Below, piece after piece: positions 31,544-50,001 of a stretch of DNA of 64,000 nt. A model generated the notes under the pieces. It was not told the origin of the DNA. It saw nothing but the letters and a program-made list of their open reading frames with translations, and ran no database searches. Every line of letters starts with the position of its first letter. Positions within the stretch are counted from its first letter, which is position 1. The position numbers and the translations under genes were made by a program. The stretch is from contig JAFUKJ010000041.1 of the NCBI GenBank assembly GCA_017467805.1, positions 1 through 64,000 of the forward strand, written 5' to 3'. Source of the stretch: Lachnospiraceae bacterium (lineage in GTDB: Bacteria; Bacillota; Clostridia; Lachnospirales; Lachnospiraceae).

Positions 31544-33445
31544 TTAACGTCTGTTCTTATTCCGCTTTACCTTATCCTCGTACATCAGCTTATCCGATTC
31601 TCTAATTAAGTCCTCAAAGTCCAAAGAATCACTTGCATCCGCACAGAAGATACCTACACTCGCTTCTGCCAAATATGGCTTATTGGAATAAGAGTTAAAG
31701 TCAGTCAGAAACTTGTTAAGCCTTTCCTTAATCACAAGCTCATCACAGGTTCTGTCTATAAATGCAATCATCTCATCACCGCCAAAGCGGGCACACAATG
31801 CGTCCGACGGACAAGCCCACTTTAATGCATCTGCAACTGCACGTATCGCATTATCACCTTCTGCATGACCATAATTATCATTAATGAACTTCAAGCCATC
31901 CAAATCGGCAAGAATAACAGTAATACAGCCATCCTGGTCCCGTACTCTTTCTGCCATCTCATAGTATTTTTTCACGAATCCATTACGATTATATAGACCT
32001 GTTAATACATCAAACTGATACATACTTTCCATCTGTTTCTTCAGATAGTTCTGATATCGATTATTTCGATAGCCGCCAATTGCTCTCGCTAAGGAGTTAA
32101 CATACATAATCATATCACAAAATTCCATGGAACCATATTCCTCATAATGGAAACAAATATATCCCAATGTTTGTCCAAGATATTCCAAAGCCATAAAGAA
32201 AAGCGGCTGTCCTCGCTGTACAAGCCCTGCAATATTAGGAATAATCACATTTTCCTTATAGGCTTCCATGACATTATCCACGGCCTCTCCCCTGCATAAA
32301 AACATATGCCAGCTTTCCTCCATAGAATCCTCTCTTTTACTACTCATAGGATTCAATGTCTCATCTACACAGCAATGCTTTAAGATACAGGTAGCTTCCT
32401 TCTTCATATAACGCTGCCATATTCTGGATGCATCATTGATATTCTCACATAAGGATACCTGTGCTGCAACATCTGAACAATATCGTTCCTCATCCTGATA
32501 TCGATAGAAATTGGTATTAATTCTCTTAATAATCTTCTCTGACTGAATGCTCATATTCGGTGTACACCCACAGGACTCCGAATATACAGACATCGGCTTA
32601 ACATAGTAACGCTTTTGCAATTCCCGATTGTGGAAGTAATCCTCCATAATCTCCGTGATGCGTGCTGCAAACTCATCATAATCACAAATACAGGTGGTTA
32701 TCTTAGGAATATTAAAGAAAGCATCATCGATTCCATCAAAGCCTGTTACAATCACATCCTCAGGCACACGATGTCCTTTCTCTCTTAACATGTGAGCACA
32801 GTTCATCGCCATCGCATCATTCGCACAGATAATCGCCTCAGGTATCTCACTTCTTTGCAAAAGCACTTTCATTGCACGTTGTGTCGGCTCTGCCCAGAAT
32901 TCACCATAGCTAATCATGGAATCATCCACAACGATGCCATTGTCCTTGCACACCTTACGAAATATAGCAAGTCTCTGTTCTGAAAAGCTTTCATTCGGTA
33001 TTCCTCCCATAAAATGAGGCTTTCTCACTCCATGACCCTCAATGACATGTCTGACAATCTGCTCAAAGCCCTTTTCATAGTCAAAGTATATTTCATAGCA
33101 ATCCTCATCCTCTCCATCAATCAGAAAGGTTGGAATATTATTCGCCTTTGCGCCTGTAGCAATCTCATGTACCATCTGCTTACTCTTGATATTCTCTGAC
33201 ATGATCATAACCGCATCTGTCACATCATAATCAATCAGCTTCATAACGTCCACATCGCCGCGTTCTGTCATAACAGTACGATATTTTTCTTCTTCATGCC
33301 AACACAAATCCGCATATATGCTATAGACAAACAAACAATATCCCTGCTTATCAAAATATTCACTTAAATACTTTATAAAATCATAATTAGTCGCCTCATA
33401 AATTCTTGATGTGCATAAGGCTATTATTTTTCTATCACCAATCAT
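31544..33445 (-). CDS. Cytosolic LacI-type ligand-binding domain fused to GGDEF (copy A)
   Basis: 633 aa, no signal peptide and no membrane helix. Residues 1-285 resemble the LacI/PBP1 sugar-binding fold (AIICANDAMAMNCAHMLREK, then DVIVTGFDGIDDAFF) but the DNA-binding helix-turn-helix is absent. A Ser-Cys-Gly-Cys motif (291-294) follows, then a middle domain (about 300-460) and a GGDEF domain with DVLTGLYNRNGF, DLDGLKFINDNYGHAEGD and ARFGGDEMIAF (555-559). The final Phe is Met; the Asp/Glu are kept, so activity is likely. No RxxD site is seen. GGGGG lies 7 nt before the ATG. A paralogue lies at 42361-44277. Confidence 0.9.
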   Translation of the reverse strand: MIGDRKIIALCTSRIYEATNYDFIKYLSEYFDKQGYCLFVYSIYADLCWHEEEKYRTVMTERGDVDVMKLIDYDVTDAVMIMSENIKSKQMVHEIATGAKANNIPTFLIDGEDEDCYEIYFDYEKGFEQIVRHVIEGHGVRKPHFMGGIPNESFSEQRLAIFRKVCKDNGIVVDDSMISYGEFWAEPTQRAMKVLLQRSEIPEAIICANDAMAMNCAHMLREKGHRVPEDVIVTGFDGIDDAFFNIPKITTCICDYDEFAARITEIMEDYFHNRELQKRYYVKPMSVYSESCGCTPNMSIQSEKIIKRINTNFYRYQDEERYCSDVAAQVSLCENINDASRIWQRYMKKEATCILKHCCVDETLNPMSSKREDSMEESWHMFLCRGEAVDNVMEAYKENVIIPNIAGLVQRGQPLFFMALEYLGQTLGYICFHYEEYGSMEFCDMIMYVNSLARAIGGYRNNRYQNYLKKQMESMYQFDVLTGLYNRNGFVKKYYEMAERVRDQDGCITVILADLDGLKFINDNYGHAEGDNAIRAVADALKWACPSDALCARFGGDEMIAFIDRTCDELVIKERLNKFLTDFNSYSNKPYLAEASVGIFCADASDSLDFEDLIRESDKLMYEDKVKRNKNRR

Positions 33446-33478
33446 TCTGTTGCCCCCACAAAATTCCCCTCATTAATA

Positions 33479-33506
33479 ATTATACTACAATTTGACAATA
33501 CTGCAA
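33479..33506 (-). promoter_or_regulatory. Promoter of LacI-fold/GGDEF gene A
   Basis: Minus strand: TTGCAG (33501-33506) and TATAAT (33479-33484) with a 16-bp spacer. The predicted leader is only about 27 nt long. Confidence 0.65.
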
Positions 33507-33522
33507 TATTTTCAAAACAAAA

Positions 33523-33551
33523 TAGTGTCGCTATATGCAATAGCGACACTA
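33523..33551 (-). terminator. Terminator downstream of uxuB
   Basis: Minus strand: TAGTGTCGCTA pairs with TAGCGACACTA over a 7-nt loop and is followed by TTTTGTTTTG. Confidence 0.75.
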
Positions 33552-33571
33552 CTCGCAAAATTAACTATTTA

Positions 33572-35182
33572 TTAGACATATCTCCACAGAGTCTCTCTTA
33601 CGGCACCAATGCCCTGAGTCATCTCACTCAAATAGCTGCACACGACATCTGCAAGTCCAACCTCATAGAGATTGACACCAAAAATCTTCTCATCCTTTAA
33701 AATCGGCGCTACTGCGGACTCTACATCCTGCTCCTCTGTCAGCTTTAAATCTGCTACATACGGGCAAACTGTAGCAAGCAATGGGTCTGGGCTAAGCTCA
33801 AACTGGTTTCCATTGTCATCAATACCCATCAGATAGCGAAGCCAGCCTGCAAACACAAGCGGAATCAGCTTCAAATCACTTACATTTAGGTCAGGCGATG
33901 CCTGATATGCCTTAATCGTTTCACCAAATCGAATTGCCAGCTTCTGCGAAGTATCTGTTGCGATTCTCTGTGGTGTATCAGGCATAAATGGATTCGGAAT
34001 ACGAACATTTAATACAGTATCAATAAATACCTTCGGGTCAAGAACTCCAGGATTTACTACTACTGGAAGCCCCTCTACATAACCGATAGTCTCTACCAGC
34101 TTTTTCAGCTCCTTGTCCTTCATCTCCTCAGAAATCTTGGTATATCCAAGCAGGCAGCCAAATACTGCAAGCGCTGTGTGCAAAGGATTCAGACAGGTAC
34201 AAACCTTCATCTTCTCCACCTTATCAACCGTCTCTCTTGGTGTAAACATGATGCCGCCCTTCTCAAGCTGCGGTCTTCCGTTCGGGAACGCATCCTCGAT
34301 TACCAGATACTCGCACTCCTCTGCATTTACAAAAGGTGCAACATAGGTATTCTTAGAGGTAATAACAGGCTCCAGCTCCTCAATCCCATCTTTTTTCAAT
34401 ATATCCTCTACCGAAGCATCTGGTCTTGGTGTAATCTTATCAATCATTGACCAAGGAAAGGTTACCTTGCTCTTATCATTCACATAGTCAGCAAAGCCTT
34501 TATCTCCGACTCCATTTGCAGCCCATTTCTCTGCAAAGGAATTAATTGCCGCATACAGCTTATCTCCATTATGGGAGCAATTATCCATACTCACCATCGC
34601 AACAGGCTTTTGACCAGCCTCATATCTCGCATAGAGAAGTGCTGCCACCTTACCGATATAGCTCATAGGCTTTGTCGGTCCCTTTGCAAGGTCATCCGCC
34701 ACATCAGGTAACAGCTCGCCCTTACCATTTACCAGACTATAGCCCTTCTCTGTAATGGTAAATGATACCATCTGCAAGGAATCTGCCGCAAAAATCTCTT
34801 TTAATCTTGCAAAATCTGTGACATTCTCAGAATCCACTGTCAAAGACTCCACCACACTGCCTACGACGGTTTTCTCCACATTACCGTCTGCCTTTAAGGT
34901 AACAAGGATTGTATAATCATCATGTGGCTTATTCATCTTCTCTATAATCTCATAATCATAGCCTTCTGCTACTACAAGACCTCTATCCAGTACCCCCTCA
35001 TTCAAAAGGTTCTGTACTACATTTGCCTGAAAAGCTCTGAAAATATTACCTGCACCAAAGTGAATCCAGAAAGGCTTCTCCTTTGTCGCCTTTGTCACAG
35101 CGTCTCTGTCAAACTGCGGAAGCTTATAACCTGTTGCTTCCCACTGCTTTCTATCTGATAAACCGTTTTCATTTAATCTCAT
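33572..35182 (-). CDS. uxuB: Mannitol dehydrogenase-family reductase, probable fructuronate reductase
   Basis: 536 aa. The N-terminal Rossmann part starts at WIHFGAGNIFRAFQANV; the C-terminal domain carries CTCLNPLHTALAVFG, where Asn and His belong to the family's catalytic set. The mannitol dehydrogenase family includes fructuronate and tagaturonate reductases; the adjacent uxuA makes fructuronate reductase (D-fructuronate to D-mannonate) the likely role. The start at 35182 (MRLNENGLSDR) lies 20 bp past the uxuA stop; a longer frame overlaps uxuA. AAAGG lies about 13 nt upstream. Confidence 0.85.
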   Translation of the reverse strand: MRLNENGLSDRKQWEATGYKLPQFDRDAVTKATKEKPFWIHFGAGNIFRAFQANVVQNLLNEGVLDRGLVVAEGYDYEIIEKMNKPHDDYTILVTLKADGNVEKTVVGSVVESLTVDSENVTDFARLKEIFAADSLQMVSFTITEKGYSLVNGKGELLPDVADDLAKGPTKPMSYIGKVAALLYARYEAGQKPVAMVSMDNCSHNGDKLYAAINSFAEKWAANGVGDKGFADYVNDKSKVTFPWSMIDKITPRPDASVEDILKKDGIEELEPVITSKNTYVAPFVNAEECEYLVIEDAFPNGRPQLEKGGIMFTPRETVDKVEKMKVCTCLNPLHTALAVFGCLLGYTKISEEMKDKELKKLVETIGYVEGLPVVVNPGVLDPKVFIDTVLNVRIPNPFMPDTPQRIATDTSQKLAIRFGETIKAYQASPDLNVSDLKLIPLVFAGWLRYLMGIDDNGNQFELSPDPLLATVCPYVADLKLTEEQDVESAVAPILKDEKIFGVNLYEVGLADVVCSYLSEMTQGIGAVRETLWRYV

Positions 35183-35202
35183 CCCAAATACCTGTACCTT
35201 TC

Positions 35203-36276
35203 TTACTTTCTGGTCTGGCTCTTCTCGATTGCTTCCCATAAGCCATTGAGATAAGTTGCTCCTAATGCTCTGTCATATAAACCATAGCCAGGCATTGCCA
35301 CCTCATCCCAAATCATACGACCATGGTCAGGTCTGATAGGCCCCGTAAATCCAATATCATATAAAGCTTTCATAATCTCATACATATCAAAGGTTCCATC
35401 AGATGATAAGTGCGCTGCCTCTTCGAAATCTGTTGGTGAATTGAACTTCAGGTTTCTTACATGTGCAAAATGAATTCTTCCCTTTAAGGAGCGAATCATA
35501 TCAGGTAAATCATTCTCCAGATTCGTTCCATAAGAACCCGAACAGAAGGTAACACCATTATGTGGGTTATCTACCATCTCCATCATGCGAAGAATATTCT
35601 TCTTATTGATGATAATACGAGGTAAGCCGAATACACTCCACGCAGGGTCATCAGGGTGAATTGCCATATTTATATCATATTTATCACATACAGGCATAAT
35701 TCTCTCAAGGAAGTACTTCAGATTTGCGAATAACTTTTCGTCATCCACATCCTTGTACATTGCGAACAATTCCTTTACACGCTCCATTCTGTCAGGCTCC
35801 CAGCCTGGCATAATGGTACCATTCATATCACCTGAAATAGATTCAAACATCTTCTCAGGGTCAAGTGCATCTACTGCATCCTGTGTATAGGCAAGTACTG
35901 TCGAGCCATCAGCACGCTTCCTTGCAAGCTCTGTTCTTGTCCAATCAAACACTGGCATGAAATTATAACAAACCAGATGAATATCCTCTTCTCCAAGATT
36001 TGTTAAAGTCTCAATATAGTTATCAATATACATATCACGGTCAGGCGAACCAACCTTAATTGCATCATGAATATTTACACTCTCTATGCCTGCAATATGA
36101 AGTCCTGCTGCCTCTACCTCAGCCTTCATTTCACGAATTCTCTCTCTGCTCCATACCTCACCAGGCTTTGTATCATACAATGTTGTAATAACGCCATTCA
36201 CACCTGGAATCTGGCGAATCTGCTTCAAAGTAACCGTATCAAATTTAGAACCATACCATCTTAATGTCATTTCCAT
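35203..36276 (-). CDS. uxuA: Mannonate dehydratase
   Basis: 357 aa. UxuA removes water from D-mannonate to give 2-keto-3-deoxygluconate in hexuronate breakdown. Signatures seen: MTLRWYGSKFD at the start, NMAIHPDDPAWSVFGLPRI, GVTFCSGSYG, HVRNLKF and IRPDHGRMIWDE, with metal-ligand His, Cys and Asp residues. GGAGG lies 9 nt before the ATG. It is the first gene of uxuAB and has a good promoter. Kinase and aldolase for the product are not in the window. Confidence 0.95.
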   Translation of the reverse strand: MEMTLRWYGSKFDTVTLKQIRQIPGVNGVITTLYDTKPGEVWSRERIREMKAEVEAAGLHIAGIESVNIHDAIKVGSPDRDMYIDNYIETLTNLGEEDIHLVCYNFMPVFDWTRTELARKRADGSTVLAYTQDAVDALDPEKMFESISGDMNGTIMPGWEPDRMERVKELFAMYKDVDDEKLFANLKYFLERIMPVCDKYDINMAIHPDDPAWSVFGLPRIIINKKNILRMMEMVDNPHNGVTFCSGSYGTNLENDLPDMIRSLKGRIHFAHVRNLKFNSPTDFEEAAHLSSDGTFDMYEIMKALYDIGFTGPIRPDHGRMIWDEVAMPGYGLYDRALGATYLNGLWEAIEKSQTRK

Positions 36277-36322
36277 TAGAAAATACCTCCGTTATTCTGA
36301 TAATTACACATTATACACTACA

Positions 36323-36351
36323 ATTATACAACATTTCTTCCTGACGTACAA
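36323..36351 (-). promoter_or_regulatory. Promoter of uxuAB
   Basis: Minus strand: TTGTAC (36346-36351) and TATAAT (36323-36328) with a 17-bp spacer, about 47 bp upstream of the uxuA ATG. A second TATAAT-like match lies 11 bp downstream. Confidence 0.65.
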
Positions 36352-36399
36352 GAACACCGCCTATTCTCATCAAAGAAGTCTCATTAAAGAAGAAAAAAT

Positions 36400-37830
36400 C
36401 TACAGCTTTGCCTTCAACAGCTCGGTAACCATACCAGGTGAAGCCTTACCCTTCGTCTTTTTCATTACCTGACCTACAAGGAAGCCCAGTACCTTTTCCT
36501 TGCCACTGCGGTATTCCTCTACAACCTTAGTATTCTCTATCAGCACCTCATCCACTGCTGCCTCAATCGCACCTGTATCAGAAATCATCAGCAGATTATG
36601 CTCTTTCATATAGGCAAGCGGTTCAATATCATCCTCAAAGATTCGTTCAAATACAGTTTTAGCAATCTCCTGATTAATTTCGCCCTTATCCAGTGCAATA
36701 ATCAAAGCCGCCAGATGCTTTGGCGTAAACTTTAGCTGTTCGGCATCCATTCCCTTTTCCTTCAAAAGTCTCATGCACTCACCCATAAACCAGTTTGCTG
36801 TCTTCTTAGGGTTGCCGCTTAAAGCTACTGTCTGCTCATAAAGCTCTGCCATATGTCTGCTCTGTGTCAACAGCGCGGCATCATACGCAGAAAGCTTGTA
36901 TTGCTCCTGAAAGCGTAGCTGCTTCTGTGGCTGAAATTCAGGCTTCTCACTCTCCACTCTGGCAAGCCAGTCATCCGAAATCATAATGGGCTGCAAATCA
37001 GGGTCTGGAAAATAACGGTAATCCTTCGCATCCTCCTTGGAACGCATGGTAAAAGACTGCTCCTTATTCTCATCCCAACGTCTGGTCTCCTGCACCACTG
37101 TCTCGCCGACCTCCAGCAAAGCAATCTGCCGTCTGCTTTCCACCTCGATTGCCTTAGTAATCGCCTTAAAGGAAGCAAGATTCTTCATCTCCGTTCTGGT
37201 ACCAAGCACATCACTTCCTACAGGACGCACAGACAGATTCACATCTGCACGCATAGAACCTTCCTGCAGCTTACAGTCAGAGATTCCAAGATACTGACAA
37301 AGCATCTTGAGTTTCTCAAGATATGCAATTACCTCCTGAGCACTACAAAAATCAGGTTCTGATACTATTTCTAAAAGCGGTACACCGCTTCTGTTATAAT
37401 CCACCAGTGAGGTATCATTACTCTCATCATGCATCAGCTTTCCTGCATCCTCTTCCATATGCATTTCATGAATTCGAATCAGCTTCTTTCCTTTCGCAGT
37501 CTCTATCTCTACCTCACCATCATGGCATATTGGCAGATATAACTGGGATATCTGATAATTCTGCGGATTATCAGGGTAAAAATAATTCTTCCTGTCAAAG
37601 CAGCAATACTGATTCACCTTACAGCTCATGGAAAGCCCTAATGCAAGCGCATATTCCACCACCTGACGGTTCAGCACAGGCAATGTCCCAGGCATTCCCG
37701 TGCAGACAGGACATGTATTGGCATTTGCAGGTGCGCCAAACTGCGTGGAACATCCACAGAAAATCTTTGTCCTAGTCGCAAGCTCTACATGCACCTCTAA
37801 GCCAATCACTGTTTCGTATTGTGTTGTCAT
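36400..37830 (-). CDS. gatB: Asp/Glu-tRNA(Asn/Gln) amidotransferase subunit B
   Basis: 476 aa, normal length. GatB binds misacylated tRNA and activates it with ATP so that GatA-derived ammonia can amidate it. Signatures: YETVIGLEVHVELATRTKIFC, NTCPVCTGMPGTLPVLN, FDRKNYFYPDNPQNYQISQ, VDYNRSGVPLLEIVSEPD, and a YqeY-like tail KTKGKASPGMVTELL. The start at 37830 (MTTQYETV) comes just after the gatA stop (TGA-T-ATG) and has AAAGG 11 nt upstream; a 31-codon longer frame overlaps gatA. Confidence 0.97.
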   Translation of the reverse strand: MTTQYETVIGLEVHVELATRTKIFCGCSTQFGAPANANTCPVCTGMPGTLPVLNRQVVEYALALGLSMSCKVNQYCCFDRKNYFYPDNPQNYQISQLYLPICHDGEVEIETAKGKKLIRIHEMHMEEDAGKLMHDESNDTSLVDYNRSGVPLLEIVSEPDFCSAQEVIAYLEKLKMLCQYLGISDCKLQEGSMRADVNLSVRPVGSDVLGTRTEMKNLASFKAITKAIEVESRRQIALLEVGETVVQETRRWDENKEQSFTMRSKEDAKDYRYFPDPDLQPIMISDDWLARVESEKPEFQPQKQLRFQEQYKLSAYDAALLTQSRHMAELYEQTVALSGNPKKTANWFMGECMRLLKEKGMDAEQLKFTPKHLAALIIALDKGEINQEIAKTVFERIFEDDIEPLAYMKEHNLLMISDTGAIEAAVDEVLIENTKVVEEYRSGKEKVLGFLVGQVMKKTKGKASPGMVTELLKAKL

Positions 37831-37831
37831 A

Positions 37832-39328
37832 TCAGCACCTGCCTTTCTGTTCCATTGCTGTTGGCATAACGCCACGCAAAGCCTCATATTCTGCCGCCAC
37901 CGCGAATAGCTTTTCTTCTTCAAAGCTGTTTGCGATTAATTGAAGTCCTATTGGCAAGCCCTTCTCTGATAAAGCACATGGAACGCTGATTGCAGGAAGT
38001 CCTGCAAGATTCACAGCTACAGTATAAGCATCACCCTGATACATCTTTAACGGCTCTATAAGGCTTTCTCCCAGTCTTGGTGCCGTCGTTGGCGCAACAG
38101 GTGCAAGAATGCAGTCATACTCTTCAAACACCTTATCAAACTCCGCTTTAATAAGTGCCTTTGCTTTTAATGCCTTTAAATAATACGCATCATAATAGCC
38201 CTCACTTAATGCATAAGCTCCTACTAAGATTCTCTTCTTAACCTCCGCGCCAAAGCCTTCCGTTCTGCTTCTTCGATACATCTCATGCAGATTCTGAGCC
38301 TCCCTGCTGCGATAGCCATATTTCACGCCATCAAAGCGCGCAAGATTAGAGCTTGCCTCCGCGCAGGCTATCACATAATAAGCTTGTGCTGCATATTCCG
38401 TCATTGGCATGGAAATATAGTCTACCTTTGCACCATTTTGCTCAAAAAGCTTTGCTGCCTGCTCTATAGCAGCACTTACCTCGCCATCCGCTCTTGCAGT
38501 ATCCGCTTTGGACGGACTATATAAATAATTCTTTGGTACGGCAATTCTAAGCGCTTTCTTCTCACAGCCTACAGATTCTTGCTTTAAAGCGGCTTCCATA
38601 TAGGAAGTACTATCCTTTACATCATAGCCTGCGATTACCTCATACAAAGCCTTACAATCTGCCACATTTCTTCCAATCGGTCCAATCTGGTCCATGGATG
38701 AAGCATACGCAACCAGTCCGTATCTTGACACCCTTCCATAGGTTGGCTTCAATCCCACTACGCCACAATGTGAGGCAGGCTGTCTGATAGAGCCTCCTGT
38801 ATCCGAACCAAGTGCCAGAGGTGCTTCTCCTGACGCAACTGCCACGCATGAGCCGCCTGATGAACCGCCTGGTACATACTCCTCGTTCCAAGGATTCCTT
38901 GTCACACCAAATGCCGAAGTTTCCGTCGTACTTCCCATGGCAAACTCATCCATATTCGTCTTTCCAAGCACAATCATTCCTGCCGCTTCCAGCCTGTTAA
39001 TTACCTCAGCCTGATAGCCTGGAATAAAATCCTCCAGCATCTTAGAGCCACAGGTAGTCCTTAAGCCTTTCGTACAGATATTATCCTTTATCGCAACAGG
39101 AACTCCTGCCAAAGCACCTGTATATTTTCCATTCGCAATGCCTTCCTCTACTTCTCGGACTCTGGTATAAACCTTATCCTCATCCATATGCAAAAATGCA
39201 TGAAGTCTTGGCTCTATCTCTCTTATTCTGTTTATATAAATCCCTGTAGCTTCTTCTACACCAATCGCCCCTTGCCGCAGGCTTTTTCCAAGCTCCAGAG
39301 CAGACATTTCCAATACAGTCTTGTTCAT
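37832..39328 (-). CDS. gatA: Asp/Glu-tRNA(Asn/Gln) amidotransferase subunit A
   Basis: 498 aa amidase-signature enzyme that frees ammonia from glutamine. Catalytic triad regions are visible: Lys in PVAIKDNICTKG, the cis-Ser and nucleophile Ser in GSSGGSCVAVASGEAPLALG and DTGGSIRQPAS. It lies between gatC (26 bp upstream) and gatB (1 bp downstream). AAGGA lies 10 nt before the ATG. Confidence 0.97.
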   Translation of the reverse strand: MNKTVLEMSALELGKSLRQGAIGVEEATGIYINRIREIEPRLHAFLHMDEDKVYTRVREVEEGIANGKYTGALAGVPVAIKDNICTKGLRTTCGSKMLEDFIPGYQAEVINRLEAAGMIVLGKTNMDEFAMGSTTETSAFGVTRNPWNEEYVPGGSSGGSCVAVASGEAPLALGSDTGGSIRQPASHCGVVGLKPTYGRVSRYGLVAYASSMDQIGPIGRNVADCKALYEVIAGYDVKDSTSYMEAALKQESVGCEKKALRIAVPKNYLYSPSKADTARADGEVSAAIEQAAKLFEQNGAKVDYISMPMTEYAAQAYYVIACAEASSNLARFDGVKYGYRSREAQNLHEMYRRSRTEGFGAEVKKRILVGAYALSEGYYDAYYLKALKAKALIKAEFDKVFEEYDCILAPVAPTTAPRLGESLIEPLKMYQGDAYTVAVNLAGLPAISVPCALSEKGLPIGLQLIANSFEEEKLFAVAAEYEALRGVMPTAMEQKGRC

Positions 39329-39354
39329 CGCAATTCTATCCTTTCCCGCTATGC

Positions 39355-39648
39355 CTATGATTGAATCGTCTTTGGTACTACCAGCTGCTCTTCCTTACTC
39401 TTAGGCGCATTTTTCATTAACATGGCTCTGCCATCTGTATTGGTCACGACATCCTCACGAAATATATTTACCTGTGGTAACACATGCACCATAGCATCCA
39501 CTTCCTCTGTGTCCAATTCCTGCAGCTCGTCCATATATGTCAGAAGCTTCTCCATCTCTGCCATCGCATAGCATTTCTCTTCCTTCGATAGTGAAAGCTT
39601 TGCCAGCAGCTCCACCTGCGCAAAAGTCTGTTCATCAATTCTTTGCAT
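39355..39648 (-). CDS. gatC: Asp/Glu-tRNA(Asn/Gln) amidotransferase subunit C
   Basis: 97 aa, normal length. GatC stabilises the GatA-GatB complex. The pattern VELLAKLSLSKEEKCYAMAEMEKLLTYMDELQELDTEEVDA, then REDVVT, is typical. First gene of the gatCAB operon; AGGAG lies 6 nt before the ATG. Confidence 0.92.
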   Translation of the reverse strand: MQRIDEQTFAQVELLAKLSLSKEEKCYAMAEMEKLLTYMDELQELDTEEVDAMVHVLPQVNIFREDVVTNTDGRAMLMKNAPKSKEEQLVVPKTIQS

Positions 39649-39667
39649 ATTTTTCTCCTATCAAGCA

Positions 39668-39694
39668 ATAAACGGGCAAGCTTTCACTTGCCCG
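39668..39694 (-). terminator. Terminator downstream of the copper ATPase gene
   Basis: Minus strand: CGGGCAAG pairs with CTTGCCCG over a GTGAAA-type loop and is followed by TTTATTG. A closely similar hairpin lies just upstream of the same gene at 42326-42348. Confidence 0.6.
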
Positions 39695-39709
39695 CATTCT
39701 GATTCATAT

Positions 39710-39919
39710 TTACTGAATATCTAATACCTTATAGTCCTGGTCTTCAATTACCTTCTTTAACTCTTCGTTGGAAATCTCTGCATTTAAGGTTAAAACAGCA
39801 GTTCCTGCCTCATGGCTTACTACTGCCTCATCCACCTGTCCAAGTGCCTCTAATACCTTCTTTACTCTTGCCTCACAGTGTCCGCACATCATTCCTTCGA
39901 TTTTCATTGTCTTTGTCAT
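39710..39919 (-). CDS. copZ: Possible stand-alone copper chaperone from an internal start in copA
   Basis: 69 codons in the copA frame, starting at the ATG at 39919 ([15 protein letters not shown]). A GGAG lies 9 nt upstream (39929-39932), better than the site for copA itself. The product has the size and Cys-x2-Cys motif of CopZ, the cytosolic chaperone that delivers Cu(I) to CopA. That the site is used is inference; the alternative is that it is a relic of a once separate copZ that became fused. Confidence 0.5.
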
Positions 39920-42265
39920 TTCTTTGTTCTCCTTTTCTATATCCATATTAGTCTCTTCATTCACAATATACCTGTTCTTCAACACCTTATCCTTAGTAGC
40001 ATCCCTGATATTTACAAGGTTCAGTCTAAGAGCATTCGTAACCACACAAAAGCTTGACAGGCTCATCGCTGCTGCACCAAACATAGGGTTGAGCTGCCAA
40101 CCAAATATCGGAATCCATACACCTGCTGCCAATGGAATACCGATGATATTATAAAAAAACGCCCAGAATAAATTCTGATGAATATTCCTAAGTGTACTTC
40201 GACTGAGTCTGATTGCCGCAGGTACATCACTTAATCTACTCTTCATTAATACCACATCTGCGGCATCAATTGCAATATCCGTTCCTGCACCAATGGCAAT
40301 TCCCATATCCGCTCTGGTAAGTGCAGGCGCGTCATTAATACCATCGCCCACCATGGCAACCTTACCCTTTTCCTTGAGCTTGCGAATTACCTGCTCCTTA
40401 CCCTCTGGCAAAACTCCTGCAATCACCTCATCCACACCTGAAAGCTTTCCAATTGCTCTTGCCGTCTGTTCGTTATCGCCTGTGAGCATTACAACGTGAA
40501 TACCCATATTCTGTAGCTCCTTAACAGCCTTTGGACTGTCCTCCTTTATCACATCCGCTACTGCGATACACCCTACAAAGGAATTACCTTTTGCAAAATA
40601 AAGCGGTGTCTTTCCTTCCTCGGCAAGCTTTTTCGCCTGATTCTTTGTTGTCTCAGCAAGTACAATTCCCTGCTCCTTCATGCAGCGTTCATTACCGCCA
40701 AGCAGTCTCTCGTCCTCTGCATATGCAGCTAATCCATTACCTGGTAACGCCTTAAATTCCGTTACCTCATAGCCTTTTATCTCATTCTGAGCTTCAACCT
40801 CAGTCACAATTGCTCTTGCAAGGGGATGCTCACTTTTTCTTTCGAGAGAATAAGCAAGCTCTAATAACTGCTCCCTGCTATAACCATCAGCAGGAAGTAT
40901 ATCTGTCACGGCAGGTTCACCCTTTGTAATAGTTCCTGTCTTGTCCAATGCAACAATCTGTACTCTTCCCGTCTCTTCTAAGGACACAGCAGTCTTGAAC
41001 ATAATACCATTCTTAGCGCCTACACCATTACCCACCATAATCGCTACAGGCGTCGCCAGTCCCAAAGCGCATGGACAACTGATAACCAATACTGAAATAC
41101 CTCTTGCCAGTGCAAATCCAAAGCTCTCTCCAGCCAGCAGCCAAATCAGTATCGTAAGCACAGCAATCGTAATTACCACAGGCACAAATACACCTGACAC
41201 CTTATCTGCTATCTTCGCAATAGGCGCCTTAGTCGCTGCCGCGTCGCTTACCATCTGTATAATCTGAGAAAGGGTTGTATCCTCGCCTACTCTTGTGGCT
41301 TCACATTTCAAAAAGCCTGACTGATTCACAGTTGCCGCAGATACCTTATCGCCCTCGCTTTTATCTACAGGAATGCTTTCGCCCGTTAACGCTGCTTCAT
41401 TTACGGCACTACTGCCCTCCAGTACTATACCATCTACAGGGATATTCTCTCCTGGTCTGACTACAAAAACATCGCCCTTTACTACCTGTTCAATAGCAAC
41501 CTCTGTTTCTTCACCCTCACGCAATATTCTGGCAGTCTTAGGTGCCAGCTTCATCAGACTTTTCAGCGCATCCGTTGTCTTTCCCTTCGAACGTGCCTCC
41601 AGCATCTTTCCTACTGTAATTAATGTGAGAATCATTGCCGCAGATTCAAAGTAGAACTCATGCATATAGGCATGTGCCTCTTCATGTGTACCAAACACAT
41701 ACGCATCTGTCATGGCAAATAATGCATATATACTATAAAGAAAGGATGCTGCAGAGCCAAGAGCCACCAATGTATCCATATTCGGCGACTTATGCAGTAA
41801 ACCCTTAAATCCATTCACAAAGAACTTCTGATTAATCACCATAATCACTGCCGATAACAGTAATTGAATGATTCCCAGAGCAATAGGATTCTGTGCCAGT
41901 CTCTCGGGCAGATACCATCCCCACATCATATGTCCCATGGACACATACATCAATATCAGCAAAAAACCAAGTGATGCTATAAAACGTTTCTTTAATATCG
42001 GCGTCTCCTTATCCTTTAACATCTCTTCCTGTGCCGAATAATCTATACTTTTTCTTTCACTTGCAGTTTCCTTCAGGCTCGCACCATAGCCTGCATCTGT
42101 TACTGCTCTAATAATATCCTCAGCCGATGCATCGCCCTCCACGCCCATAGAATTTGTAAGCAGGCTTACCGAACAGGCTCTAACTCCCTCCACCTGGTTC
42201 ACTGCCTTCTCTACTCTGGCGCTACATGCCGCACAGCTCATACCCGTTACTATATATTGTTTCAT
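39710..42265 (-). CDS. copA: Copper-translocating P-type ATPase with CopZ-like C-terminal domain
   Basis: 851 aa. An N-terminal heavy-metal-binding domain (GMSCAAC, about 8-14), membrane helices, the actuator TGES (about 294-297), the metal-path Cys397-Pro-Cys399, the phosphorylated Asp441 in DKTGTITKG and a hinge [13 protein letters not shown] plus its ending marks a Cu(I) exporter. Unusually, a second heavy-metal domain ([13 protein letters not shown]) is fused at the C-terminus. An internal ATG at codon 783 has AAGGAG 9 nt upstream and would give a 69-aa CopZ. AAGG lies 8 nt before the main ATG. Confidence 0.93.
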
Positions 42266-42324
42266 ATGACTAACCTTCTTTCCATATATAGAATAGCCTT
42301 TTGATTGTTTTATGTCAATCGAAA

Positions 42325-42349
42325 ACGGGCAAGCTTTTGCCTTGCCCGT
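42325..42349 (-). terminator. Terminator downstream of LacI-fold/GGDEF gene B
   Basis: Minus strand: ACGGGCAAG pairs with CTTGCCCGT over a short loop and is followed by TTTTCG. It lies between this gene and copA. Confidence 0.7.
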
Positions 42350-42360
42350 CCATTACATCT

Positions 42361-44277
42361 CTAATACAACGAATGCCTCTTTGCATCCTTATTATCATAC
42401 ATGATTTCATCCGCTTCACGAACATAATCATCAAAATCTCTATCAGGGTCATCATCCGTAACGGTATAACCAATGCTGACTGACAAGCTGAACGGATATT
42501 TCTCCTGTCTTGCCTCTGCCTTTAATTGTGACTGTATATGGTCCACCAAAGAAGTAATCTTATGCTTTTCCATATTATTCATAACAACTACAAACTCATC
42601 GCCACCGTGTCGAATCGGAATCGCATTCTCGCCACAGCATTCCTTGATTACGCTTGCTGTTTTCTTAATTGCCATATCACCATACTCATGACCATATCTG
42701 TCATTAATATATTTGAGTCTGTCCATATCAAGGAAGAAAATTATCACATTCTCGCCTTTGGCTCTCTTCTCTTCAAAGAGCTTTCTCGCCAGCTTCTCAT
42801 AGCCCTGACGATTATACAGCCCTGTCATCGCATCTGTCATATACAGTTTTGACAAAAGTGTATTAAAATATGCCAGTTTTTCCTTCTTATGCAGATTCTC
42901 AATTGCATTAGAGAAGGTATTTACCACGGTAAATAAATACTGTGTTGACATGAGATACTCTGCATTTCTAAGCACCAGATATCCTACCTCACGCTCACTA
43001 AAGTGAATTGGCTGGAATAAATATACTGTTCCAGGCTTTGTAGCTTCAAAGGTTGGAAACAGCCCGTTAATTTTACCGCGCGCCTCGCTCTTTACCTCGC
43101 CATCCTCATACACAAAGCTAAGATTAATCTCCTCAGGATATCCGTCTGTCCTTAACTCCTCATTGGAGAACAGATTATACTCTCTCAAGTCAGTTATTTT
43201 TCTATAAGCATTCAAATTACCATCCAAAGCAAGATAAATACCATCACACTGTGCCTTTGGAAGCCATCCTTTAATACATTCAGGTAATTCAGAAACAGAA
43301 TTCAGCAATAACATATCATGCTCCAAAGCAAGCAGTTCACCTTCAAAAGCATTTGTCTTAATCTCATACATAATCTGCCATGAATCATGCGCTCTTCTGT
43401 CCACAGGCTTGCTTGACTTACAGCCACAGCTATCCCAATACACAGGATATGTCCTGGTATAGTTGAATCTGTCTATCTTCTCACCATTCCATATCTTTAA
43501 CAGCATTTCTACAGCAAGAACACCCACTTCCTCACGGATATGTCCTACTGTAGTAATCTTAGGTGAATAAAAGCTTGCTTTATCAAAGTTATCAAAGCCT
43601 GTCACAAGAAAATCCTTCGGTACCTGATACCCTGCCGCCACAGCCGCTTCACAAACACCTACTGCAATGTTATCATTAGCACAAATCACAGCATCAGGAA
43701 TCTCTCCCTTTTCCTGCAAAAGAGCCTTAAAGCCATTCAGACCACACTGGCACTCATAATTCTCATAATAAAAATCATCATCCTTATATGCAATCTGATT
43801 CTTATCCATGTAATCCTTTAGTGCTTGCACTCGTACGGAATTTTCATAATTATCTTCAGGTCCCATGACAAACCAGAATCTCTCACTGCCATGCTTGAGA
43901 TGCAAATGCTCTATAATATCCGTAATTGCAGCATAGTTATTGATTCCTGCGTAATAGCAGCCATCCACCTCATGTGCAAGAGATATAATCGGCTTTCCAC
44001 TGGCACGGAGTCGTTCCATTAATCTCTCTGTAATCTTAGGGTCATCTATATTATTAATATAAACCAGAATTCCATCAAACTCCGAAAAATCTGGAAGCTC
44101 AAAGATATTATATTCCCCATGACTGTATTTCTCGTCCAGACTCCAGCTGGCAAAGCAATTAAAGATATAGAGACTAATATCCTCATCCTGTTCACGGATT
44201 CTGCTCGCAATTCCCGCGTGCCATGCATCTGTGAAAAATCTTTTCCAGCTATTCATAACCAATGCTACTTTTTTCAT
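42361..44277 (-). CDS. Cytosolic LacI-type ligand-binding domain fused to GGDEF (copy B)
   Basis: 638 aa, no signal peptide or membrane helix. LacI-like fold at 1-275 (AVICANDNIAVGVCEAAVAA, then DFLVTGFDNFDKASF) without a helix-turn-helix. Ser-Cys-Gly-Cys at 283-286, in the same place as in copy A; a middle domain (about 295-470); then GGDEF with DAMTGLYNRQGY, DMDRLKYINDRYGHEYGD and IRHGGDEFVVVM (558-562), intact. No RxxD site is seen. The start at 44277 (MKKVALVMNS) has AGGAGG 6 nt upstream; the 10-codon longer frame contains that site. Binding of a sugar is inferred from the fold. Confidence 0.9.
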   Translation of the reverse strand: MKKVALVMNSWKRFFTDAWHAGIASRIREQDEDISLYIFNCFASWSLDEKYSHGEYNIFELPDFSEFDGILVYINNIDDPKITERLMERLRASGKPIISLAHEVDGCYYAGINNYAAITDIIEHLHLKHGSERFWFVMGPEDNYENSVRVQALKDYMDKNQIAYKDDDFYYENYECQCGLNGFKALLQEKGEIPDAVICANDNIAVGVCEAAVAAGYQVPKDFLVTGFDNFDKASFYSPKITTVGHIREEVGVLAVEMLLKIWNGEKIDRFNYTRTYPVYWDSCGCKSSKPVDRRAHDSWQIMYEIKTNAFEGELLALEHDMLLLNSVSELPECIKGWLPKAQCDGIYLALDGNLNAYRKITDLREYNLFSNEELRTDGYPEEINLSFVYEDGEVKSEARGKINGLFPTFEATKPGTVYLFQPIHFSEREVGYLVLRNAEYLMSTQYLFTVVNTFSNAIENLHKKEKLAYFNTLLSKLYMTDAMTGLYNRQGYEKLARKLFEEKRAKGENVIIFFLDMDRLKYINDRYGHEYGDMAIKKTASVIKECCGENAIPIRHGGDEFVVVMNNMEKHKITSLVDHIQSQLKAEARQEKYPFSLSVSIGYTVTDDDPDRDFDDYVREADEIMYDNKDAKRHSLY

Positions 44278-44452
44278 TATCTGCCTCCTCATATGTATCA
44301 GGCCCATTTTTTATATCGTAACATATTTTTTTTAAATATACCACTAATATTATCATCTTTATGCGTTCAATTGCTTTCATTTTCTGTATATTTATGCTGT
44401 TCTAATAAAGAATGTACTTTAGCAAACTCTTACACTGGAAAAATTCCAACAA

Positions 44453-44501: not shown

Positions 44502-46238
44502 TTATGCTTCTAATTTTTTAAATCGGCTAACTTCCTTATTCAAGTCATTTGCAACATTATGATTATCTTCTACTGTAGAAGCAATTACCTCCATATTGCC
44601 GTGAATATCTGCTGTACTCTCCGTTGCCTGAACTACAGATTTTGTACTCTCTAAAACTGCATTATTAATCTCGCTGATACCAACGCTCATGGTCTGTGCA
44701 ACCTCTTCCAAATCAGCTGCTTTTTCCTCAAACACTGCAAACACTTCCTTCAGTCTGCTTGCATCTGACTTATAGCCTTCAGCTGACTCTACGAAATCTT
44801 CGTAATCCTTTAAAACATTATCTGTCACATACTGCATAATTTCGTTTGCATTAGTAACCAAATCCTGCACTGCACTTGTAACCATACCGCTGATTTCCTG
44901 AATACTATTCGCAGTATCGCGGCTGCTGTCTGCAAGCTGTCTGATTTCTTCAGCAACAACTGCAAAGCCTTTTCCTGCTTCGCCTGCTCTTGCTGCCTCA
45001 ATAGAAGCATTCAGGGCAAGAAGATTTGTCTGGCTGGAAATATTTAAGATATCTGTTGTCAGCTGATTAATTCTTTCAACTGACTTACTTTCTTCTATTG
45101 CAACATCCATACGGTTGTGAATATCTGCTACCATATTCTTAGTTACTTCCTGACTATGTACGCTATTCTGGTTTACTTCATCTGCACGCTTTGCCAGTCC
45201 ATCTACCAGCTCAACAGTTGCTCCAACCTCGTTGCCCATATCTCTTGCCGAACCAAGTACTCTTCCTGAGCCTTCCTCGATAGACTGCATCGTAGCACTT
45301 ACCTCCTGCATACTCGCAGAAAGCTCTTCCATCGTAGCTGATACACTATCCGTTTCATCCTTACAAAGAATTACCTTATCATTAATTTCCTCTGCGGACT
45401 CATACATCTGTGTTGCACCGCCGCGAATTGAGAGCATTACTCCCTGTAAGGTATCTAAGAAATGATTGATACTGCCAATCATCTGACCGATTTCATCCTG
45501 CTGCTTAGTCTGAAGACGGATTGTCAAATCGCCCTCACCCTTATCAATATTTTCAACCATATCAAGTAATATTTCATTACTCTTCTTGATTGGCTTTACA
45601 ATTGACTTATAGATATATACGCCAGCCGCTGCAACACCTGCAATAAACATAATTGCCATTGCTCCAATAATTACATTCATATTAGTAATTGCTTTTTCGA
45701 TTGATGCAGAACAGTCATCCTGTGCCACTAACAATGCTTCCTCAAAAATTGCATAGGCTTCATCCATCGCATTGGTTGCACCAAACATTCCTCCCTGTGC
45801 CTCTACTGCACCTGCCTGGTCTCCGTCATTATAGCATGCGGTAACAGTCTCTCCGATGCTAACTAAGGCTCCAACCTTATCCGCATAACCATTAAAGGTT
45901 TCCAGTACCGCAGGGTCATCTACCTGCTCACACAAAGCTCTCAGTTCTGCAATCTCCTGATTGAGTAACTCGATATCGCCTGGCATATTTCCAGCCATTC
46001 TGGCAACTGAATCCGCCGAATTCGATGTTGCAATCATATTACAGTACATCTTTACAGTTTCAATACAGGTAACCAAATCCGTCTCACCTGCGCGAATCTG
46101 TACAAATAAATCTTCCAAATCCACTACATTTTCTTCTACATTAGCTGCGTTCATTGTATTCATGATAGAACCTACAAAATAAATTGCTAATAACAATGCG
46201 AACATGGACATAACCTTTACTACAATATGCTTTTTCAT
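44502..46238 (-). CDS. Methyl-accepting chemotaxis protein
   Basis: 578 aa. Membrane helix near 8-28, an outside helical ligand-binding domain (about 30-190, four-helix-bundle type), a second helix (about 190-212), HAMP (about 213-265) and a signalling domain with [20 protein letters not shown] and [18 protein letters not shown]. Such receptors control the CheA kinase and flagellar motor switching. GGGGG lies 7 nt before the ATG. The next receptor gene ends 18 bp upstream, so the two are in one operon. The ligand is unknown. Confidence 0.92.
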
Positions 46239-46256
46239 TTCGCTTCCCCCTATGAA

Positions 46257-47960
46257 TTACACAATAAACTGTTCCATCATCTTAACCATCGTCTCAACCT
46301 GCGCCATCTGCTCCTCACTGACTGCCGCAGTCTCCTCGGATGATGCAGAGTTATTATTAACAACCTCTGAGATAGATACCATTGTGGAGTTGATTTCCTG
46401 AATACGAGCCACTTCATCCTCCAAGAGTCCTGAAATCGCATTCATCTTATCGGTTGCTTCCTTAGCACCTGCCATAACCATTTTCATATCCTCTGCTGTT
46501 TCTCCAGCAATTGAAATTCCCTTATCTACAGCACTTACGGTTGCTTCGATTAACGTTGTTGTTTCCTTAGCTGCATTAGAGGATTCCTCTGCCAGCTTTC
46601 TAATCTGGTCTGCTACTACCGCAAAGCCCTTTCCTGCTTCACCTGCTCTTGCTGCCTCTATAGAAGCATTTAATGAAAGAAGGTTTGTCTGCTCCGCAAT
46701 ATCTTCAATCGCACTGATAATTGTACTAATCTGTTCAGAACACTTGCTGATTTCACCAATTGCCACTACCAGCTCATCCATCTTTGTATTACCCATCATA
46801 AGCGTTTCTCCAGCCTTAGTAGAAAGCTCAACGCTCGCGATGGCTTCTCTTGCTGTACTCTCTGTTGCATCTGACATTTCCTGAACATTCTCTACTACTG
46901 TAGACACCTGTGTTGCCTGTGCAGTACAGCCCTCAGCCAAATCCTGTGCTGCACATGCCAGCTGACTTGAACCTGCTTCAATCTGCTCTGTAACAGTCTT
47001 GATCGTACTAATAGTCTCTCTCATCTTCTCGCCAATCTTGATGAAAGACTCTCTAATCTCTGAATATTCTCCTACATATGCCTCATGTAATGAGATTCTG
47101 TAATCACCATTGCCCATCTGCTCTAAGGTATTAGATACTTCCTGAATAATAGCAAGTGTATTATTTCTCATGGTATTAATCGCACTTACCATAGTACCAA
47201 CCTCGGACGCATCCTCAAACATATCAAAATGCTCGTTAAATTCACCTCTCGAAAGATAAACCATCTGCTCTGACACCTTTTTAATAGGAGATATCAGTTC
47301 TTTCTTGGAAAACTTGATAATTACTAATATCTGCCACACAATAACTGCTACAATTACTGCAAAGACAAGCATTGCTATTCCCTGTACAAATGCCAAGGTC
47401 TTCTGTTCACTTGCAAGCCTTTCCTGAATATGACTAATCGCTGTATCTGTAACCTCATTAATCTTCTCTACTGTTTCCTCGTATTCCTGTCCGAAAACAT
47501 AATTCTTCGCAGCTTCGAAATCACCTGCCTGCACACTTGCCATGGCACTTTCCTCTAATGGAACCAATCCCTCAGACATACTTGCGATTTCATTCAGCAC
47601 CGCCCACTCTTCGTCTGTAATATCATGCTCATGAAGCACCTCTAATGCCTTATCACGATTCATCTCAACATTCAATTCATTCATGTATTCTTCATAATAA
47701 TGCGTATTACCATCTACAGCATAGGACTGTACTGCTGCTGTCAATGCCTTAGAGCCAAGTCTGTACTGGTTCAGTGCCATAGTTACTTCTAACTGTGCTG
47801 TAGCAGCTCTTGATGACAGCATTGTGGAAATGAATGTTGCAAATAACATAACTACACCAATCACGATGATAACATTAATCTTCCTGACAATCCGATTCAA
47901 TTGGGCTTCCTGCCCTACCACAGCCTTTGCCTTAGTCTGTTTCTCTTTCATAATTTCCAT
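46257..47960 (-). CDS. Methyl-accepting chemotaxis protein
   Basis: 567 aa. Membrane helix (about 32-52), outside helical domain (about 53-195), second helix (about 196-218), HAMP region, then a signalling domain with [20 protein letters not shown] and [19 protein letters not shown]. It starts an operon with the receptor downstream and is divergent from a third receptor at 48265. GAGG lies 7 nt before the ATG. The ligand is unknown. Confidence 0.92.
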
Positions 47961-48264
47961 CTACCTTCCTCTCAATATGTTCTTACCTCATGGGCTTTTC
48001 AATAACTTTTTATTCCATTTGTAGATTCTTACCTATTAATATTATCACTTTTTGTGCAAAACATCAATCGCTTTCTATTAATTGCACACAAATGCATTAT
48101 ATTGTTATTTAATTTCTTATTTAAACACTTTTTAATTGAATACTTTTATTGTTTGTATTAAAATATTATTAGATTATTTCATATTGTAAAGACATTTGAA
48201 TCAATATAGCATTAGACGATATTTTTCCGTCTATTATTTTTAATGTTGTAATGGAGGAATTACC
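47961..48264. other. 304-bp AT-rich divergent promoter region between two receptor genes
   Basis: No gene is seen. For the plus-strand receptor, TTGAAT (48136-48141) and TAAAAT (48159-48164) with a 17-bp spacer form a plausible promoter, but the region is so AT-rich that chance matches are likely. I see no clear sigma-28-type promoter. Confidence 0.4.
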
Positions 48265-50001
48265 ATGAAAAAATTATCATTCAAAAAAAGTCCTTCAAAG
48301 AAAAACTCTGGCAAAGGACAGGCATTAAAGAACATGCCGATTAAACAAAAGCTCTTGAAAAGCTTCGGAAAAACATTATCACTATTTGGTGTCACTGCGG
48401 TCTTCTTCCTTGGTGGATTAATCTATGTTGGTTTGCAGCTGATACAGTTTTATAACTACAGCTACTCTCTGTCAAGCCGTACCTTGGATGCCCAGCGTTG
48501 CGTGCAGGAAGGTATTAAATGCGTAAGTATTGCTATGGTTACCAATAAGATAAATACTATCAGCCAATACCAGACACGCTCGAATGAGCTTATGCTGGAG
48601 CTTGCTGACGAGCTGGTGATCATCCGTGATATGTACAAAGGCGACACTACCTTAATTGATGAAACAATCAGTATGCTGGAGGCTGCAGAAGTGATTCGTC
48701 TTGAAGTCGAACATACCGCACTCACAGGTTCTAAGAGTGGAGCTACGACTCAGTTCCTTGAAGAATATACACCTGCCATGGTTGCAATCGAAGAGAACCT
48801 TACTCTTTTGGTACAGAACGCTGATGATAGTGCTGAAAGTACATACCGTACTGCTTTGGCGGCAGAAATCGCTATTTTTATCATTGCAATTGCAATTATC
48901 ACAGCTACTATTAGTTTGACACTTAAAACAGCATCTTCTCTTACAAAGGCATTAACACAGCCTATTGAAGAAATCGAAAGTGCTGCTAAAGATATGGCTG
49001 CTGGAAGTCTTAATGTCGAGCTTACCTATGAAAGCGAAGATGAGCTTGGTATCCTTAGCGATTCCATGAAACAGCTTTGTGATAATACCAAGGCGATTAT
49101 CGAAGATATCGGCTACACTTTGCAGGAATTAGGTAATGGTAATTTCCAGGTTAAATCAGGTTGTCCTGAAAAATATGTTGGCGACTATGCTCAGATTCTT
49201 GATTATATGAGAGTTATCCGTGATAATCTGAATGATACTCTGACACGCATTAATCAAATGGCAGACCAGGTATCTGTTGGCTCCGACCAGCTTGCTGAAA
49301 GCGCCCAGGCATTAGCTGAAGGTGCAACCGACCAGGCAAGTGCCGTTGAAGAGTTAACTGCTACTGTTGAGGATGTTACGAATATCTCTGTTCAGAATGC
49401 TGAAGGTGCTGTCGCTGCATATCAGAACATCGCTCAGGCTGAGCAGGAAGCAAGTAAGAGTCAGGACGACCTGAACAGCTTAACAGATGCAATGGATAAG
49501 ATTAATCAAACCTCTATCGAGATTGAAAAGATTATCGGTTCTATTGAAAAGATTGCTTCTCAAACAAACCTGTTAGCATTAAATGCTTCTATCGAGGCTG
49601 CCAGAGCAGGTGAAGCAGGAAAAGGCTTTGCAGTTGTTGCAGACCAGATTGGTCAGTTAGCTGCTGACAGCGCCCGTTCCGCAGTCAATACAAGAGCATT
49701 GATTGTAAAGAGTATGGAAGAAATCAATAATGGTACTCAGATTACAGAAAAGACAGTTGCTGCTATTCATGGCATTATCGCCAGCATGAAGGAATTCGCT
49801 GAATCAACTAAGATGGCAAGTGAAGCTTCACAGAATCAGGCAAATATGTTCAAGCAAATTGAAATGGGTATCGAACAGATTTCCAAGGTAGTTGAAAACA
49901 ACTCTGCTGCCGCTCAGGAAACCTCGGCTACAAGCCAGGAGCTTTCCGCTCAGGCAGAAGGACTTAAAGAAGAAACCAGCAGATTTAAGTTATTGTCATA
50001 A
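48265..50001 (+). CDS. Methyl-accepting chemotaxis protein
   Basis: 578 aa. A very basic cytosolic N-terminus (Lys-rich, about 1-33), a membrane helix (about 38-62), an outside helical domain (about 65-200), a second helix (about 203-225), HAMP, and a signalling domain with [20 protein letters not shown] and [24 protein letters not shown] lies 7 nt before the ATG. It is transcribed away from the other two receptors and ends at its own terminator. The ligand is unknown. Confidence 0.92.

Follow-up and report, generated by a model that had tools for sequence, protein, structure and literature searches.

In a 64,000-nucleotide stretch of the genome of a Lachnospiraceae bacterium (contig JAFUKJ010000041.1 of assembly GCA_017467805.1, positions 1 to 64,000; hereafter the window), two paralogous genes, copy A and copy B, encode proteins in which a LacI-type ligand-binding core is followed by a Ser-Cys-Gly-Cys (SCGC) junction, a GAF-fold domain and a GGDEF domain. 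With a probability of about 0.68, we regard both proteins as soluble cytosolic diguanylate cyclases that respond to sugars, the ligand of copy B being most likely derived from galactan and the Cys-x-Cys (CxC) pair of the junction acting in the coupling of the sensor to the transmitter. Few ligands are known for the enzymes of cyclic di-GMP (c-di-GMP) metabolism, and examples of direct sugar input are scarce. The family described here is common in Lachnospiraceae and has hints to its ligand built in, in the form of fused or neighbouring glycoside hydrolases of families GH53, GH42, GH3 and GH78; the sugar that controls c-di-GMP in these bacteria is therefore directly testable.

The best clue to the ligand comes from outside the window, above all from relatives in which a hydrolase is carried on the same chain as the sensor and the cyclase. 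The Pfam analysis identified PBP1-GGDEF-GH53 proteins in loci L071 and L072 and a single PBP1-GGDEF-GH3 protein in L070. A fusion scan gave 36 loci, and in 23 of them a single open frame encodes [ST]CGC, GGDEF and a GH53 domain that has both Glu motifs. Four of these 23 run off the contig start, a single assembly accounts for two (L185 and L211), and part of the set repeats contigs whose fusions had already been found in the sampled genomes. Rumen samples are named in seven of the 23 record titles, and the others include strain XBB2008 and metagenome-assembled genomes of Agathobacter. The catalytic Glu residues of GH53 are invariant in the four sequences aligned. A hydrolase attached in this way could either produce or remove the ligand.

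The same linkage is observed for separate genes. In L125, genes for GH42 and GH53 are followed by the cyclase gene, all on the same strand (Pfam), and L129, from the same genus, has GH53 at the same place in a similar layout. Comparison of the 150 listed members with the 150 listed GH53 genes from the same 397 genomes placed GH53 within 5 kb of nine members versus 0.53 expected (Poisson P 6e-9), in eight genomes of seven genera. Five of the nine are fusions, three have GH53 as an adjacent gene, and the last is a separate cyclase gene next to a fusion. For GH78, 3 of 144 members have such a gene at this distance versus 0.19 expected (P 0.001), the third case (G619) being a weak GH78 match. In a tree of 109 members, which took in three fused and three adjacent GH53-linked members, copy B shares a clade with these GH53-linked proteins (support 1.00), to which the GH42-GH53-cyclase row also belongs, and copy A with the GH3 fusion (support 0.99); the cyclase encoded beside a fusion (L136 10998-12890) falls outside the B/GH53 clade. 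The fusions in the clades of both copies lead us to consider A and B as most likely cytosolic sugar-responsive diguanylate cyclases. Copy B probably reads a galactan-derived sugar, and copy A would respond to a sugar of some kind. By eye, five enzyme N-termini of L125, L159 and L165 have no signal peptide, in agreement with a sensor located in the cytosol. The GH5 of L077 and the L061 amylase have the look of secreted proteins.

Further neighbours of family members, apart from GH53 and GH78, are single descriptive cases (GH2, GH5, GH39 and GH13). In L159 (776-10240) and L165 (2841-12259), a GH3 gene stands in a row with genes for a GH78 rhamnosidase, a sensor-cyclase and a chemoreceptor (MCP in L165, where a sugar kinase is also present), pointing to a rhamnose-type ligand for these members. 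In L134 (5553-7400, G076:C23) the sensor-cyclase gene is broken into two frames immediately before a GH53 gene.

Several observations weigh against a sugar-responsive function of the window copies. Both proteins end after GGDEF with no glycosidase on either chain, and no glycosidase gene is adjacent to either of them. For 141 of the 150 listed members, none of the listed GH53 genes lies within 5 kb. Homologues of uxuA and uxuB, which neighbour copy A, were found in no other examined locus longer than 5 kb (phmmer, E 1e-15). As an alternative, the core may bind a non-sugar cytosolic ligand, such as a purine or a protein partner, the glycosidase links being chance operon company. PurR and CcpA, which have ligands of these kinds, do rank close to the core among proteins of solved structure, in sequence as well as in fold, and the 141 members without GH53 nearby agree with such a ligand. 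However, the retention of the LacI-type R/N/D positions, the single-chain GH53 and GH3 fusions and the clade-specific linkage make this explanation unlikely.

A more specific ligand, a uronate-related compound, had been guessed for copy A in the original prediction from its position next to uxuAB. In the window, copy A follows uxuA and uxuB, all three being encoded on one strand with 126 bp between uxuB and A, and this order would agree with sensing of an intermediate of the uronate pathway. This candidate was rejected on the phmmer search for the two window genes in all open reading frames (ORFs) of loci longer than 5 kb, several of which belong to the clade of A, each locus spanning only some kilobases on either side of the member. 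The adjacency to uxuAB is not conserved in these loci, the clade of A holding a GH3 fusion instead, and a uronate ligand appears very unlikely.

The assignment of the ligand-binding core to the LacI type is supported both by sequence and by fold comparison. Pfam matches to Peripla_BP_3 cover residues 137-275 of A and 127-269 of B, and the similarity of the N-terminal part to PBP1 folds, assumed from the sequence at the outset, is thereby detected at both levels. Alignment of the model of A to full-length LacI-family chains starts at about residue 53-62, i.e. after the DNA-binding head, and the core is matched whole, up to about LacI residue 331. No helix-turn-helix family was found in A or B in the Pfam scan at E values up to 1, so the predicted absence of a DNA-binding head holds; the sensor may descend from a repressor that lost this part, as the original prediction proposed. 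Three positions, R, N and D, which we take to be the sugar contacts of LacI-type cores, are kept in 88-94% of members (R in 103, N in 96 and D in 100 of 109). The highest 19-residue hydropathy is 1.14 in A and 1.43 in B, and the lack of any membrane-type hydrophobic stretch agrees with the cytosolic location proposed earlier. The two proteins are 24% identical (BLASTP). A third paralogue (G000:C99, L061 7081-8970), with the junction SCAC, is encoded on another contig of the same genome, where it sits behind a large secreted-looking alpha-amylase/CBM48 gene on the same strand.

Among the genomes sampled from the same family, at least 96 of 397 yielded a member in a profile search with the middle domain; the counts were at least 19 of 295 in the order sample and at least 7 of 319 in the phylum sample. 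Each sample includes the window's own genome. Ruminococcus albus also carries members with [ST]CGC.

The CxC pair proved to be conserved across homologues far beyond chance, and it marks the junction of sensor and output as the original prediction had it. In a set of 46 sequences that contains A, B and the third paralogue, the first Cys is invariant and the second occurs in 44; in the larger set of 109 aligned members the counts are 108 and 106. Within the sensor and GAF part, the first Cys is surpassed in conservation by G428 alone. Variants of the motif include TCGC, SCDC, SCRC, SCPC and SCAC; the second Cys is lost in SCGG and SCRY, and both are lost in L096. Because the search profile itself contains the motif, relatives with a match starting behind it were inspected. 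Among 12 that were fetched, ten have [ST]CGC, including proteins of other families of the phylum, one (L096) is without it and one (L109) is a fragment lacking that part; two further matches of this kind (G341:C448 and G619:C181) lie outside the 12. In the genome of the window, six LacI repressors were compared, and CxC is absent from the corresponding place in all of them; five have S/T near their end there. The motif is also found ahead of GGDEF-EAL, of EAL without a recognised GGDEF, and of histidine kinase and hybrid kinase outputs, and is therefore part of the sensor end and not of the cyclase. Being common to cyclase, phosphodiesterase and kinase outputs, this junction offers a simple way into the question of how a core of the LacI type can control outputs other than DNA binding.

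Two groups of these relatives have additional features. In L120 (4315-8769), L121 and L119, the CGC-ended LacI core belongs to histidine kinases, either plain or of the hybrid type, and in L120 the next gene encodes an HD-domain response regulator. The EAL-bearing members L063, L064, L065 and L066 have about 370-400 extra residues after EAL, which gave no Pfam match.

In the model of A, SCGC lies in a turn between the last strand of the core (285-287) and a helix (302-331). The CxC pair may be no more than a cap that closes the core structurally and binds no metal, forms no disulfide and takes no part in redox control. Its position in the turn after the final core strand, the Ser that occupies the place of the S/T found near the end of five of the six LacI repressors, and the few members without the second Cys or without both are consistent with a cap, and we would give this explanation a little less than an even chance: across divergent sequences and outputs of several kinds, each Cys is retained in 97-99%, which in our judgement is more than a mere cap needs. 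Apart from C207, located in a pocket strand, and the motif itself, there is no strongly conserved Cys, and a parallel GAF-GGDEF dimer would juxtapose the two pairs at the head of the helix; for these reasons our guess is that they form a shared Cys4 metal or redox site.

A domain between SCGC and GGDEF had been noticed in the original prediction and left unnamed; its presence stands, and it can now be described as a GAF fold from structure comparison of the modelled segment of A. This assignment was made by fold because no Pfam family, GAF models included, matched the middle domain of A or B at E values up to 1, and a profile search of the PDB gave only weak matches (E 0.18-0.45). The coupling of a LacI-type core to GGDEF, also proposed earlier, is borne out by the Pfam matches and by the retention of catalytic positions, the metal-binding Asp among them. 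Residues D514, K519, N522, D523, G556, D557 and E558 are invariant in 40 sequences, i.e. the set of 46 minus three EAL-type members with degenerate GGDEF and three fragments or odd starts. The inhibitory-site RxxD is absent from A and B and present in one of the 43 GGDEF-bearing homologues among the 46; this site is not obligatory for diguanylate cyclases. Copy A has the signature GGDEM, and its nearest relatives include M, I and V variants, so that it may be a ligand-dependent regulatory or GTP-binding relative of GGDEF proteins and not a cyclase. This is improbable given that GGDE is intact and the remaining catalytic positions are kept, GGDEM itself occurring in 8 of 113 members.

For A and B as sugar-responsive cyclases, the following mechanism can be proposed. 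An intracellular sugar or oligosaccharide would close the LacI-type core, and this closure would be relayed via the [ST]CGC junction and the following helix into the GAF-fold domain. The latter would in turn set how the two GGDEF domains of the dimer are arranged, and the c-di-GMP output would thereby follow the intracellular sugar. The CxC pair would act in sensor-to-transmitter coupling, and in a parallel dimer the two pairs could come together as a single Cys4 clasp of the metal or redox type. A wider interpretation, which we find doubtful, is that these proteins represent a class of cytosolic glycan-flux sensors whose LacI-type receptor and cyclase are coupled by a Cys-x-Cys clasp, with a metal or a redox link bridging the two halves of the dimer. 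In one branch, the galactanase on the same chain would itself produce or degrade the ligand. If so, c-di-GMP would report ongoing breakdown of plant polysaccharides, and the enzyme would reset the signal.

Coordinates are summarized in Table 1. The same domain order in the two genes was confirmed by ORFs and Pfam; the gene positions given in the original prediction hold, and the strand was corrected to minus for both. An alternative ATG of copy B is possible upstream at 44307, and AGGAGG precedes 44277 only.

Table 1. Features of the window and loci of the single-chain GH53 fusions
Feature	Position	Strand	Basis or source
Copy A, PBP1/LacI core - SCGC - GAF fold - GGDEF (reads GGDEM), 633 aa	31544..33445	-	ORF, Pfam, model
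Copy A LacI-type ligand-binding core, residues 1-288	32582..33445	-	
Copy A SCGC junction motif, residues 291-294	32564..32575	-	alignment, model position
Copy A GAF-fold domain, residues about 302-438	32132..32542	-	
Copy A GGDEF domain, residues 477-628, signature GGDEM, without RxxD at the usual inhibitory-site spacing	31562..32017	-	Pfam
uxuB-like gene (mannitol dehydrogenase family), 126 bp upstream of copy A	33572..35239	-	Pfam PF01232/PF08125
uxuA (D-mannonate dehydratase), neighbour of copy A	35203..36276	-	Pfam PF03786
Copy B, PBP1/LacI core - SCGC - middle domain - GGDEF, 638 aa	42361..44277	-	ORF, Pfam, AGGAGG before 44277
Copy B SCGC junction motif, residues 283-286	43420..43431	-	
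Copy B GGDEF domain, residues 480-635	42373..42840	-	Pfam
Two chemoreceptor-like (MCP) genes upstream of copy B	44502..47960	-	ORFs; similar to L165:4295-6049 (Pfam MCP)
23 single-chain sensor-cyclase-GH53 fusions	L182-L199, L201, L203, L205, L209, L211		Lachnospiraceae and related records

The chemoreceptor-like genes by copy B form a set of three across 44502-50001, the third (48265-50001) named by eye. Genes resembling gatA and gatB, named by eye and, for gatB, by similarity, lie upstream of a family member both in the window (36400-39328) and in L068 (7531-10473); uxuAB stands between them and the member in the window, and the L068 member is of the EAL type. A search of the genome for the c-di-GMP-I riboswitch gave no match, as did the same search in 14 control genomes.

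In the portions of the literature that were available, no description was found of the family, of the CxC junction or of the glycosidase fusions as a signalling system. The available part of the review PMC8846402 lists periplasmic-binding-protein-like domains of c-di-GMP proteins as possibly sugar-binding, among domains without a validated role, and the sugar entry of its table is a route based on the phosphotransferase system. The Peripla_BP and GGDEF proteins treated there resemble A and B in pairing a binding-protein-like domain with c-di-GMP domains; the CxC junction, the GAF fold, the paralogues and the glycosidase fusions are not mentioned in that part. In the accessible text of PMC5342196, the protein ERE_21070 of Eubacterium rectale M104/1 (CBK94002) has GH53, and a GGDEF protein is similar to it outside the GH53 domain; judged from this description, in which the sensor and junction do not appear, ERE_21070 is probably one of the sensor-cyclase-GH53 fusions. 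In PMC5457731, as far as available, a GGDEF protein is labelled GH53 by a CAZy tool. In the accessible parts of both papers, glycosidase activity was measured for GGDEF proteins to which CAZy-type searches had attached a GH53 label or link. This label may go back to the fusions described here; the measured activities are not explained thereby.

With GAF-GGDEF cyclases such as Lcd1, which appears in the accessible table of PMC8846402, A and B share a GAF fold preceding GGDEF, and the Lcd1 GAF domain is among the fold matches of the segment of A (row 18). They differ in that the GAF-fold domain has no Pfam GAF match and is placed behind a LacI-type core. With the LacI/GalR repressors (LacI, CcpA, RbsR and PurR), A and B share the whole ligand-binding core and the sugar-triad positions; whereas these repressors carry a helix-turn-helix head, A and B instead continue the core with CGC, a GAF fold and GGDEF.

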